Source: Candidatus Aminicenantota bacterium
Lineage (GTDB): Bacteria; Acidobacteriota; Aminicenantia; Aminicenantales; Aminicenantaceae
NCBI GenBank assembly: GCA_011042725.1
Contig: DQWD01000213.1
Location: 1 to 37,810, forward strand
Length of the DNA: 37,810 bases
Direction: 5' to 3'
Shown one piece after another: positions 12,450 to 18,274 of the stretch. A program made the position numbers and the translations under genes. Below the pieces are notes generated by a model that was given only the letters and a program-made list of their open reading frames with translations, made no database searches and was not told where the DNA came from. Positions within the stretch are counted from its first letter, which is position 1. Every line of letters begins with the position of its first letter.

Positions 12450-13919
12450 CTAGGCTTCCTCTTTTGGCTTTTCAGCAAAGACTTGGGCTTCAAAGGTAAA
12501 AATTTTTGCCCCCTGCCGCCAAGCATTAGGGGGAAGACCAGCTTTTAAGCAGGCTCGTCTTAGAAAAGTAAGACGATCCCAACCATTTTCCAACGCCACC
12601 TGAGGCAGCAGAAGGCCTTTTTGCCTTCCTTTTTCGATCACTAAGCCGTGTCGCCCGACTTGGATTTGGGCCGGGTTGGTGATTTTAGTTAAAGGGGTTA
12701 GGACAGAGATTTCGATCTCAACGTCCGGGAGCTCATCGAGAGAAACAGGGTTGAAGCGAACATCTTTTACGGCGGCATAAATAGCGGCTTGAATGACCGT
12801 TTGGTAAAGAGGCAGACTTGATTCGATAAAACCAATACATCCCCGCAGGCGGCCATTATGGTGGAGAGTCACGAAAACTCCTTTTTTCTCTAATAGACGA
12901 GGTGACGAGGGGGTGTAATGGGGGGGGTTTTTATTTTGGAGAAAGAGAGTGATAGCTTCCCGGGCCAGCCTCAATAACTCCTTTTTTTCTTGTTCCGTTA
13001 AGGCCTCCTCAGTTTTGCCGCCTGAGCTCGGGGGGGAGATTTCCAGGGTAGCCGCCACATAGCCGACGACTTGACTGGCTGGCCCGCCGCCGGCGGTGGA
13101 ATCCCGGTATTCTAAGATGTGGAGACGGGAGGTTTTTAATTGCTTAGCGGCTAAAAGCAGAGAACTCACCGGGCCTACCCCACACATTATATTTTCCCCT
13201 CGGGTGGCTTTCTGGAGAAGAGTCTCAGCTTGGAGATTCTCAATCAACTTAATCGTTTGGGCATCTACTTGATTGGCTTTGGCTTGAGGAAGGTAGTGAG
13301 ACAAATCAGTAGTAGCCACCACGAGCACTTGAGGATTAGCCATTATTTTCGTTAGAGCTTTCGCCATTTTTTGAACATCTTTATGACGGGGGTAACCAAA
13401 GACAACAGGTACAATCTTGGCTTGGGGCCAAGCGACTTGAATAAAGGGCAACTGGACTTCGATAGAGTGCTCTTGTTTATGAGCTTGAGGGATTGTTTTA
13501 TAGCCGGTTAATTGGGCCAATTTGGCTGCCCAAGGAGAATCCACCTCGATTAATCCGAGAGGAGTTTGGTAACGAGCATCCTGGTCGATAGAGACGCCTC
13601 GGAAGGCATAGTGATGAGCCGGCCCCATAATGATCACGGTGGAAATAGATTGACTTTTAACCTGAGCATAGGCCTTGGCGGCCACCGAGCCGGAATAAAT
13701 GTAGCCAGCATGGGGAACAATAATGGCCCGGATGTTTTTAGCCGGAGGGAGAGAAAGGGTCGCCGCAAACCACTCCTCGATTATCTGGCGGAGTTGAAGG
13801 GGATTGTCGGGGTAAAATTGCCCAGCCCAGACAGCGGGCCGAGTGGTCTGAGCCATTAAAAGAGAAGTCAGGCTAAGAACAAGGATCAGCCCACTAAACC
13901 CAAATTTTGCTTTGCTCAT
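12450..13919 (-). CDS. MEMO1-AMMECR1 fusion (AmmeMemoRadiSam system protein B/A) with N-terminal signal peptide
   Basis: Signal-like MSKAKFGFSGLILVLSLTSLLMAQ; MEMO motifs PHAGYIYSG, GPAHHY, EHSIEVQLPFI, TTDLSHY; AMMECR1 motif LRGCIGFIES. RBS AAGGAGA. Confidence 0.9.
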   Translation of the reverse strand: MSKAKFGFSGLILVLSLTSLLMAQTTRPAVWAGQFYPDNPLQLRQIIEEWFAATLSLPPAKNIRAIIVPHAGYIYSGSVAAKAYAQVKSQSISTVIIMGPAHHYAFRGVSIDQDARYQTPLGLIEVDSPWAAKLAQLTGYKTIPQAHKQEHSIEVQLPFIQVAWPQAKIVPVVFGYPRHKDVQKMAKALTKIMANPQVLVVATTDLSHYLPQAKANQVDAQTIKLIENLQAETLLQKATRGENIMCGVGPVSSLLLAAKQLKTSRLHILEYRDSTAGGGPASQVVGYVAATLEISPPSSGGKTEEALTEQEKKELLRLAREAITLFLQNKNPPHYTPSSPRLLEKKGVFVTLHHNGRLRGCIGFIESSLPLYQTVIQAAIYAAVKDVRFNPVSLDELPDVEIEISVLTPLTKITNPAQIQVGRHGLVIEKGRQKGLLLPQVALENGWDRLTFLRRACLKAGLPPNAWRQGAKIFTFEAQVFAEKPKEEA

Positions 13920-14670: not shown

Positions 14671-15003
14671 ATGGGTTGGACACCGTATCTTATACTGATT
14701 ATTTTTGGATTGTTTGTGCTTCTTTCTATTCTCAACCCGAATTTTTCCTGTTTTGGCCGCCGTCTCAAGTCGCCTTTTTATCCTCTTTATCGAGGAAAAA
14801 AGAGGAAACAAGTGAAGACCCACGATTATGGATTTTATTTAGTGGACGATAAGGCGTCAAAAAACCAGAAGAGCTCTCCAGAGAATGTATATTTTCTAGA
14901 TGATACTTCTTCCTCTTCCCAGAAAAATTTGTCTTCCCGAAAAAAGAAGAGTTCCTCTCCTGAAGCTAATGACTTGTCTTCATACAAAGTTGACTCTGAA
15001 TAA
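14671..15003 (+). CDS. Small membrane protein with Ser/Lys-rich tail (110 aa), unknown function
   Basis: N-terminal TM (YLILIIFGLFVLLSIL) and polar low-complexity tail; strong promoter upstream. Confidence 0.55.
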   Translation: MGWTPYLILIIFGLFVLLSILNPNFSCFGRRLKSPFYPLYRGKKRKQVKTHDYGFYLVDDKASKNQKSSPENVYFLDDTSSSSQKNLSSRKKKSSSPEANDLSSYKVDSE

Positions 15004-15670
15004 TAAGTTTTCTCTTTCCCCCCGCAAGCGGGTTTTTTCCCTAGGGCTGATTATCCTGGGGATTTTTTGTCAATGTCGGGTTCCGTCTCTTTATCTGGAA
15101 CAGGTTCCTTCCCAGATTACCACCATGGAGGGCTATGCCTCTCTGGTGATTAAAGATGAAAACCATCTTTCCCGGAGTAAAGTTTCCTTTTTTGTTCTGT
15201 TGCCTGACCGGGCTCGTTTAGATATTGCCGATCCTCTTGGCCGCACCAGGGCGCAGATTTTATTTTTGTCTCCGCGGGCTTATTTAGTATTACCGGGGAA
15301 GAAAGTTTATTGGGAAGGCCGGGAAGAGGAGTTGTTTGCCAATTTCTTTGGCCTTACTTTTACCTGGCGAGAATGGAACAATTTATTGATCAATCAAGAG
15401 GCTCTGGCTGCCGATTGGCAGGTTGCCCGAGATGCGGCGGGTCGTATTCGGCAAGGAAGCCGGGAAAACCTGACTTTTGAGATCCAAAACTATGCCCAGC
15501 AAACGGCGGTGGTAACCGAGTTAAAGATTTCTTTTCCTCGCGGAGAAGTGCGGTGGAGACTGACTAAAATATTATTCAATCATCCTTCCCGGGAGGGTAT
15601 CTTTTCTTTGGACTTCATGAATCGTTATCAACGCCAGAACTGGGCCGAGATGGAAGAATTTCTCAAATGA
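14990..15670 (+). CDS. LolB/DUF4292-like outer-membrane (lipo)protein
   Basis: ITTMEGYASLVIK...VSFFVLLPDRARLDIADPLGRTRAQILFLSPRAYLVLPGKKVYWEG pattern; located directly before ispE as lolB is in gammaproteobacteria. Start uncertain (TTG 14990 or ATG 14969); no canonical lipobox. Confidence 0.6.
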   Translation: MTLNNKFSLSPRKRVFSLGLIILGIFCQCRVPSLYLEQVPSQITTMEGYASLVIKDENHLSRSKVSFFVLLPDRARLDIADPLGRTRAQILFLSPRAYLVLPGKKVYWEGREEELFANFFGLTFTWREWNNLLINQEALAADWQVARDAAGRIRQGSRENLTFEIQNYAQQTAVVTELKISFPRGEVRWRLTKILFNHPSREGIFSLDFMNRYQRQNWAEMEEFLK

Positions 15671-16542
15671 AGATATTTGCTTTAGCTAAAATAAATTTAG
15701 GGCTGGAAGTAATTAGACGGCGCGATGATGGCTACCACGAACTTAGGACTTTATTCCAAAGCCTTTCCTTGGCGGATGAACTCGAGTTTTTTCCTCGAAA
15801 TGACGACCTAATTAGGCTATCTGGCAACAAAAAATCAGTTTCATGGGGAAATGACAACTTAATTTATCAAGCCGCTCTAGCCCTAAAAAGAGCGAAACCA
15901 GGGACCTATGGAGTGGAAATTAAAGTTAGAAAAAACATCCCTCCCGGGTATGGGCTGGGTGGGGGGAGCAGTAATGCGGCGGTCACTCTCCTGTTTCTAA
16001 ATCAGCTGTGGAATTTAGGATTGGCTCCAGGCGAGCTGGTCGAAATAGGGCGCCAATTAGGAGCGGATGTCCCCTTTTTTTTTCATGGAGGGTTTTGTTT
16101 AGGGGAGGGCCGGGGAGACCTAATCCAGCCCCAGCCAGAAAAGTGGAAATGGGCGGTTTTGGTAGTGTTGCCACCCTTTTCTTTGTCTACTCGTTGGGTC
16201 TTCCAGCAAGCGAGGCTTTCCTTGACTTCAAAACCTAAAGTGAGTAAAATTAATCAGTTTTTAAAGAGCGGTTGTTTGGCGGCTTTAGAGAACGAGTTGG
16301 AAGAAGTAGTATTTTCCCGGTTTCCTCGGTTAAGAGAGATAAAAGAAGCGCTAAAAGATCAGAAAGCAGAATTGTCCTTGATGAGCGGAAGTGGATCAGC
16401 TCTCTACGGCCTCTTTGCTACTAGCCAACAGGCCGAGGAAGCAGGACGAGAGATTTCTCGTCTCTTCCCGGAAGTTGAGTTCCGGGTGTGTCAAACGGTG
16501 AAGCGCTCTCAATATTGGACAACTATTGGTGTTGGGGTGTAG
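15667..16542 (+). CDS. ispE: 4-diphosphocytidyl-2-C-methyl-D-erythritol kinase
   Basis: AKINLGLEVIRRRDDGYHEL, IPPGYGLGGGSSNAAVTL, LMSGSGSALYGLF (GHMP kinase motifs). Confidence 0.95.
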   Translation: MKIFALAKINLGLEVIRRRDDGYHELRTLFQSLSLADELEFFPRNDDLIRLSGNKKSVSWGNDNLIYQAALALKRAKPGTYGVEIKVRKNIPPGYGLGGGSSNAAVTLLFLNQLWNLGLAPGELVEIGRQLGADVPFFFHGGFCLGEGRGDLIQPQPEKWKWAVLVVLPPFSLSTRWVFQQARLSLTSKPKVSKINQFLKSGCLAALENELEEVVFSRFPRLREIKEALKDQKAELSLMSGSGSALYGLFATSQQAEEAGREISRLFPEVEFRVCQTVKRSQYWTTIGVGV

Positions 16543-16607
16543 CCAAGCGGTAAGGCAGCGGACTTTGGATCCGCCATTCGGGGGTTCGAATCCTCCCACC
16601 CCAGCCA
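16533..16607 (+). tRNA. tRNA-Gln (anticodon UUG), CCA encoded
   Basis: Acceptor stem TGGGGTG/CACCCCA, anticodon stem GCGGA/TCCGC with loop CTTTGGA, T arm GGGGGTTCGAATCCTCC, discriminator G and CCA. Confidence 0.97.
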
Positions 16608-16655
16608 TTCATTCTTTTGGGAAAGAAAACTTATCCTCCTAAAGAAGGAGCGACG

Positions 16656-17600
16656 ATGCGGAAACAAGATTTAAAGATTTTTGCCGGATCTTCAAATCGC
16701 CCATTAGCCCAGAAAATCGCTCACTATTTGGGTTTGGAGTTAGGCCGGTGTGTGCTGGAGCGCTTTAGCGATGGCGAGATTCATTTTTATATTGATGAGA
16801 ACGTTCGAGGAGAAGATGTCTTTATCATTCAGTCGGGTTCCTACGAGGCTAATTTTCACCTCATGGAACTTTTCTTGATGATTGATGCTTTCAAAAGAGC
16901 CTCGGCGGAAAGAATTACCGCCGTTATCCCTTACTATTGCTATGCGCGACAGGATTGGAAAGATAGGCCTCGTGTGCCAATTTCGGCTCGCTTAGTAGCT
17001 GATCTTTTGGAAAAAGCAGGGGCTAACCGTGTTTTAACCATGGACTTACATTCGCCCCAAATCCAAGGGTTTTTTTCAATTCCAGTAGATAATTTAATGG
17101 CGGCTCCGGTCTTAGCCAATTACATCAACAGCCTCAACCTGAAAAAGCTAACCATTGTTTCCCCTGATGCAGGGGGAGTCGGCCGAGCACGATGGTTTGC
17201 TAAGAAAATGAAAGCATCTCTGGCCATCATTGATAAACGTCGTCCTGCCCCTAATATTGCTGAGGTCCTGCATGTTATTGGGCAGGTCAAAGAAAGAGAT
17301 GTAGTTATTCTTGATGATATGGTTGACACGGCCGGTACTTTGGTTCTTAGCGTGGAAGCCTTACGCAAGGAAGGCGCCAACCGGATTTTAGCCGCCTGTA
17401 CCCATCCGGTTTTATCAGGTCAAGCCCTCCAGCGGATCCAGGACTCCCCATTGGAAGAATTGATTGTGACCAACACAATTGAAATGAGAGAGGAAGCTAA
17501 AACCATGGATAAAATCACGGTTCTTTCCGTAGCCGAGCTGTTCGGAGAGGCGGTGCGGCGGATCCATGAGGGTCAATCAGTAAGCAGTTTGTTTATTTAA
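16656..17600 (+). CDS. prs: Ribose-phosphate pyrophosphokinase
   Basis: LKIFAGSSNRPLAQKIA, YYCYARQDWKDRPRVPISA, VVILDDMVDTAGT; RBS AGAAGGAG. Confidence 0.97.
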   Translation: MRKQDLKIFAGSSNRPLAQKIAHYLGLELGRCVLERFSDGEIHFYIDENVRGEDVFIIQSGSYEANFHLMELFLMIDAFKRASAERITAVIPYYCYARQDWKDRPRVPISARLVADLLEKAGANRVLTMDLHSPQIQGFFSIPVDNLMAAPVLANYINSLNLKKLTIVSPDAGGVGRARWFAKKMKASLAIIDKRRPAPNIAEVLHVIGQVKERDVVILDDMVDTAGTLVLSVEALRKEGANRILAACTHPVLSGQALQRIQDSPLEELIVTNTIEMREEAKTMDKITVLSVAELFGEAVRRIHEGQSVSSLFI

Positions 17601-17611
17601 GGAGGCCGATA

Positions 17612-18274
17612 ATGGCAATTCAGATTAAAGCTGAGCGAAGAGAAAAAAGAGGGAAAGGGCCTGCCCGGCAATTGAGACGGGAAGGGATGATCCCCGCGGT
17701 TTTATATGGCCCAGATGTTTCAGAAGTAACCTTGGCGATCAGGAAAAAAGACGTCAATCGTATTCTTAGACAGGGAGAAAATGTGATTTTCAAGCTCAAT
17801 GACAATGAAAAGACGTGGGATGTGATGGTTAAAGAAGTTCAAGCTGATCCGGTGACTGATGAATTATACCATGTGGACCTGATCCAAGTGGCAATGAACA
17901 AACCCATCCGGGTTTTTGTGCCGATTAATCCGGTTGGAGATCCAGTTGGAGTAAAGTCTGAGGGTGGAATAGCCGATTGGATGACAAGAGAGGTGGAGAT
18001 TGAATGCTTGCCCAAAAATATTCCCGAAGCAATTGAGGTGGACATCAGCGCTTTACATGTAAATCAATCCTTGCGGGTGGAAGATTTAACTCCGCCAGAG
18101 GGAGTTAGAATAGTTACTGATTCGGAAACGGTGTTGGTGGTCATCGAATCGCCAGTGGAAGAAGAAGTGGCGGTTACCGAGGAGGAAGAAGTAATTGGAG
18201 TGGAGGAAGAACCAGAGGTCATTGGACAAGAGGAAGGGTCGAGAAAAGAGGGAGAATCCGAGGAAACAGAGTAA
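17612..18274 (+). CDS. rplY: 50S ribosomal protein bL25 (CTC/TL5 form) with acidic C-terminal tail
   Basis: AERREKRGKGPARQLRREGMIPAVLYGP; TL5-type C-terminal domain; Glu-rich tail. Confidence 0.93.
   Translation: MAIQIKAERREKRGKGPARQLRREGMIPAVLYGPDVSEVTLAIRKKDVNRILRQGENVIFKLNDNEKTWDVMVKEVQADPVTDELYHVDLIQVAMNKPIRVFVPINPVGDPVGVKSEGGIADWMTREVEIECLPKNIPEAIEVDISALHVNQSLRVEDLTPPEGVRIVTDSETVLVVIESPVEEEVAVTEEEEVIGVEEEPEVIGQEEGSRKEGESEETE

Follow-up and report, generated by a model that had tools for sequence, protein, structure and literature searches.

In animal mitochondria, excision of tRNAs sets the 3' end of the upstream messages, which are left with an incomplete stop codon. In bacteria, the tRNA-Sec gene (selC) is nested in, or partly overlaps, selB in Alphaproteobacteria, Gammaproteobacteria and Nitrospirae, for which an either/or model has been proposed from sequence alone (Mukai, 2021, PMC8124441). 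The same paper also cites a crustacean mitochondrial case (PMC8124441). A literature search of partial coverage returned selB/selC as the only precedent and no report of ispE together with tRNA-Gln (with or without prs), so that this report of the overlap is likely new.

The window, that is, the whole stretch of 37,810 nucleotides analysed (Candidatus Aminicenantota bacterium, assembly GCA_011042725.1, contig DQWD01000213.1), carries a same-strand run of housekeeping genes: lolB-like, ispE, tRNA-Gln, prs, rplY, pth, rpsF, rpsR, rplI, dnaB and mlaE. From ispE to prs the plus strand was scanned for terminator-like sites and none was found. The order lolB-ispE-tRNA-Gln-prs-rplY-pth is known from pseudomonads and is the same in the window. 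The initial annotation, which drew this parallel, was right about the shared order, but the arrangement is not special to pseudomonads, being widespread in the window's phylum. The ispE-tRNA-Gln-prs order was absent from E. coli and from 20 Bipolaricaulota loci. The features around the junction are the following:

14900-15670, plus strand: lolB-like lipoprotein gene (weak, sub-threshold Pfam LolB match, E 0.00059; reading start uncertain)
15667-16542, plus strand: ispE, 4-diphosphocytidyl-2-C-methyl-D-erythritol kinase, 291 aa (TIGR00154, 212.8 bits; cut-off 138.7)
16504-16527, plus strand: codons of the last predicted IspE helix (residues 280-287, RSQYWTTI), the last structured part before the tRNA
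16533-16607, plus strand: tRNA-Gln(UUG), with CCA encoded at 16605-16607 (ARAGORN)
16533-16542, plus strand: 10-nt ispE/tRNA-Gln overlap, made up of the 5' strand of the acceptor stem and U8-A9-G10
16540-16542, plus strand: ispE stop codon TAG, tRNA positions 8-10
16608-16655, plus strand: spacer between tRNA-Gln and prs
16656-17600, plus strand: prs, ribose-phosphate pyrophosphokinase, ATG at 16656 (NF002320, 464.5 bits)
17612-18274, plus strand: rplY (bL25/Ctc), next in the presumed operon

The ispE stop at 16540-16542 thus falls inside the tRNA gene beginning at 16533, exactly as first annotated. The last ispE codons are GGT (16528-16530), GTT (16531-16533), GGG, GTG and TAG (16540-16542), whereby the final T of GTT is nucleotide 1 of the tRNA. 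The match to Rfam RF00005 (16533-16604) scored 65.1 bits (gathering score 29) and covered the full model with all pairs intact. The complete cloverleaf, the anticodon UUG and the CCA present in the DNA are those of a functional elongator tRNA; the acceptor stem is TGGGGTG/CACCCCA and the discriminator base is G. At its other end, ispE overlaps the stop of the lolB-like gene through an ATGA at 15667-15670.

The locus resembles selB/selC in several respects. In both, a tRNA gene lies on the same strand at the 3' end of a protein gene, nested and partial forms occur side by side, many nested forms have a stop overlapping the next start codon, processing is predicted to give a nonstop message, and the overlap is conserved yet lost in some lineages. 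The window itself has an overlap of only 10 nt rather than full nesting, which was found in 45 of its relatives. Unlike SelB, which binds Sec-tRNA and is the elongation factor of tRNA-Sec itself, IspE has no known link to its partner, an ordinary elongator tRNA. Further differences from selB/selC are that the ispE stop consists of tRNA nucleotides 8-10 and is set by nucleotide 9, and that conservation extends over a whole class, with apparently a single origin and with the genome's only copy of the tRNA involved. The likeness to mitochondrial tRNA punctuation is weaker: in mitochondria a terminal U or UA becomes UAA by the addition of A's, whereas here the cut message would end in GGU GU and the added A's would give GUA AAA, in which no stop is formed.

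The overlap is class-wide and not a local accident. In the window's class, 142 genomes from 12 families were searched, of which 130 were scorable, having both parts in reach. The ispE frame runs into tRNA-Gln in 127 of these 130, in a single phase throughout; homologous loci thus retain the overlap, and a sequencing or assembly error at the ispE 3' end, considered as a trivial cause, is ruled out by its recurrence in the same phase in 127 genomes. Three forms were found among the scorable genomes: ispE ends at tRNA positions 8-10 in 79, the window included, ends at a TAA in the D-loop in 3, and contains the entire tRNA within its open reading frame in 45 (in one of them the contig stops at the tRNA). 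The nested genomes belong to families f2, f8 and f12, and in most of them the frame first comes to a stop at the start of prs. Only 3 of the 130 have no overlap, namely two genomes of f5, with a TGA 7-8 nt before the tRNA, and one of f9, with a TAA directly before it. Outside the class, the ispE-tRNA-Gln-prs order is kept at 41 loci of the same phylum, and at 40 of them ispE stops short of the tRNA, the gap ranging from 2 nt to several hundred. The sole overlap there (G212) has its stop in the D-loop and is in a different phase. On a tree of IspE and Prs the class formed one side of a branch with a support of 100, and presence against absence of the overlap took four changes, which suggests that it originated about once, in the ancestor of the class.

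The place at which ispE ends follows the tRNA sequence. Nucleotide 9 turns the third full codon of the frame they share (T|GGG|GYG|TNG|CCA) into TAG, TCG or TGG; A9 was present in all 79 short overlaps, and the 45 nested ones all have C9 or G9. To judge from these sequences, nucleotide 9 is what decides the end of ispE, A9 giving a UAG inside the tRNA and C9 or G9 letting the frame continue. Since C9 or G9 also prevails outside the class (36 of 41 loci), a tRNA base appears to have been recruited as the ispE stop and later lost again several times. By parsimony the A9/TAG form would be the basal one within the class, but a basal branch has a support of only 76 and this order of the forms is tentative.

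The possibility that open reading frames commonly run into tRNAs by chance was examined with 28, 33 and 31 testable tRNAs in three genomes and is ruled out. In the window's genome, tRNA-Gln was the only one of the 28 entered by an upstream open reading frame of at least 100 codons, and it was the only tRNA to be entered by a recognised gene of that length in each of the three genomes. Other frames entered tRNAs once each: a HU-like one in G104 and three further ones in G123. The former (L270) is a 185-codon frame which ends at the first bases of tRNA-Val(GAC).

The geometry of the IspE C-terminus bears on why the overlap has lasted. Within the window's order the protein ends in R-x-x-Y-[W]-x-x-[LIVAF]-x-x-G-[VA], with the hydrophobic residue kept in 70 of 70 aligned rows, and this conserved end lies at most two codons upstream of the tRNA. 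In the AlphaFold2 model (mean pLDDT 92) the last helix ends five bases upstream of the tRNA, and the final residue, 291, has a pLDDT of 32. Only the codon that follows the conserved hydrophobic residue is free, because the next codon ends in T1 of the tRNA and can never be a stop. In f12 there is even less room, the conserved hydrophobic residue being encoded by the codon that straddles the tRNA boundary. Under saturation and with one free codon, a stop in that codon is expected neutrally in 2.1 of 32 genera and was seen in one (f5); with two free codons, the probability of one or no stop-bearing genus would be 0.07. As the rate of new stops fits the one-codon geometry, retention of the overlap is by itself no evidence of regulation, and its persistence may be explained without regulatory selection by there being about one codon free to become a stop. 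The single phase of all overlaps, even though frame-shifting indels in the last codons might be tolerated, hints at a further constraint. Two genomes of genus g12 (G026 and G034, loci L016 and L023) carry in-frame insertions which extend the IspE end, with the frame into the tRNA retained. At the opposite end, in genus g26 (f6; e.g., G041:C15 and G047:C123), the ispE open frame extends beyond the IspE match by about 200 codons on the upstream side and measures 510-520 aa in several genomes, either as an upstream fusion or as a GC-rich open frame.

IspE is an essential enzyme of isoprenoid synthesis (MEP pathway). Its tRNA neighbour, the reader of CAA, was found in one copy in each of 18 genomes tested, the window's included; weaker second matches to tRNA-Gln(UUG) were at most 81% identical and covered part of the query, and G000 and G104 have a separate tRNA-Gln(CUG). 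Being single-copy, tRNA-Gln(UUG) must be matured. The initial annotation had argued that RNase P cleavage before 16533 would remove the ispE stop, and this follows from the anatomy of the junction, a message ending in GGU GU being left. Since the last helix ends before the tRNA, the cut would yield a nonstop message that still encodes IspE residues 1-288, nearly the complete enzyme and the whole of its predicted fold. A tmRNA was detected in 40 of 41 genomes, in 37 of them above the cut-off, and that of the window's genome encodes the tag AETLPVAA. Co-transcription, cleavage and tmRNA rescue at this locus are what we infer from these sequences. Overall, the overlap is real, conserved and unusual, and the maturation mechanism is plausible.

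Among the genera with nested forms, 14 of 16 have their first in-frame stop beyond the tRNA at -21 to +14 nt from the prs start; where that frame closes earlier, the figure is 13 of 30 genera (Fisher p 0.004, with two other ranges giving similar results; the genera share ancestry and the range was picked after seeing the data). This clustering favours real translation across the tRNA with hand-over to prs, and in f12 ATGA is the usual form of the ispE/prs junction. The tail that the tRNA would encode in a nested relative had an AlphaFold2 confidence below 50 and is a predicted disordered segment. In most f11 and f12 genomes (e.g., L143, L146 and L161) prs starts 6-15 nt after the tRNA 3' end (generally 7-15 nt within f12, G140 with 23 nt being an exception), and no Shine-Dalgarno sequence of prs was seen at the f11/f12 loci with this short spacing; tRNA 3' processing there would leave the prs message almost leaderless. 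In a further genome additional to the scored ones (G092, f2, locus L135), ispE, tRNA-Gln and prs form one frame of 638 aa with an intact tRNA-Gln at 669-742 of the oriented stretch; a fusion, an assembly slip or mere chance might explain this.

The arrangement is most probably, with moderate confidence, a class-wide packing of ispE onto the single-copy tRNA-Gln(UUG) without spacer, locked in place by lack of room and having the nonstop message as a by-product. As the comparison of loci supports, an ancestor of the class lost the DNA between ispE and tRNA-Gln together with the ispE stop, whereupon the ispE frame entered the tRNA and came to be ended by nucleotide 9, either by the UAG at positions 8-10 (A9) or further on (C9 or G9). 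The shared transcript would then give either translated IspE, the 5' half of the tRNA being kept open by ribosomes, or, through the RNase P cut before 16533, mature tRNA-Gln. The cut would leave IspE with a nonstop message, for tmRNA to clear, that lacks the last three codons; the residues they encode are disordered in the model. Such an arrangement might last mainly for want of room, the conserved C-terminus lying directly against the tRNA so that a new stop has about one codon in which to arise, and it needs no switch. A selected switch, in which tRNA-Gln and IspE (together with Prs where nested) exclude one another and output is tied to maturation or RNase P load, seems fairly unlikely. Retention across the class in one phase and the position of nested stops near the prs start, as expected if ribosomes cross the tRNA, speak for it, as does the same model put forward for selB/selC (PMC8124441). 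Yet IspE and tRNA-Gln have no known functional link, f5 and f9 have lost the overlap, the low rate of new stops is accounted for by geometry alone, and the stop-at-prs comparison involves related genera and a range chosen post hoc. The crosstalk between IspE and tRNA-Gln supply suggested in the initial annotation is not supported, and a shortage of room for another stop can account for the persistence. It is doubtful that competition between ribosomes and RNase P acts class-wide as an either/or switch balancing tRNA maturation, isoprenoid synthesis and PRPP supply, with every transcript going either into translation across the tRNA (and on to Prs in the nested clades) or into the release of tRNA-Gln.

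The overlap would be inconsequential if a promoter of its own inside ispE supplied most of the tRNA while translating ribosomes held the tRNA unfolded in full-length ispE messages, which would then rarely be cut; this is improbable. One tRNA gene must indeed supply far more copies than there are ispE messages, and a candidate site, TTGACT-17-TAAAAT at 16222-16250 inside ispE, matches 10 of 12 positions of the E. coli consensus, against which all promoter scans were scored and which may not apply here. However, this site is about 280 nt away from the tRNA, and matches like it were only about twice as numerous as in shuffled sequence. A close tRNA promoter, which would have spoken against a shared transcript, was not apparent: the best sigma-70-like site within 200 nt before the tRNA in the window reached 8/12, and no consistent site was found within 100 nt of it across the class. 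In genera g49 and g26 third codon positions show somewhat higher conservation 33-100 codons upstream than they do further upstream, which would suit an internal promoter, but synonymous constraint near the ispE 3' end, considered as a promoter mark, was neither consistent nor sharp just upstream of the tRNA. It is very improbable that ispE in practice ends, or has its message trimmed, ahead of the tRNA, with the frame open by chance and the nested frames untranslated. In its favour, stops in the nested ispE frames between tRNA and prs were not depleted relative to the other two frames; against it, a stop-free end would be needed in each of 127 genomes without any in-frame stop before the tRNA, and nested first stops cluster at the prs start.

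At this junction the stop codon of an essential enzyme sits inside a single-copy essential tRNA nearly class-wide, and a tRNA base, nucleotide 9, fixes the end of an unrelated protein. With its natural variants (10-nt overlap, D-loop stop, full nesting and secondary separation) the locus allows a comparative test of how ribosome and RNase P compete. If an either/or switch were true, the tRNA sequence of the nested clades would also be read as about 25 protein codons. Annotation programs may misplace the ispE end in these genomes.

Folding of the junction was ordinary in the window (z -0.12). By inspection, CTCCT at 16636-16640 in the spacer is able to pair with AGGAG (16646-16650) of the prs ribosome-binding sequence AAGGAG (16645-16650), and similar short spacer hairpins seem to be present in G001 and G002. 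Elsewhere in the window, at 12450-13919 on the minus strand, a single protein combines Memo-like and AMMECR1 domains.
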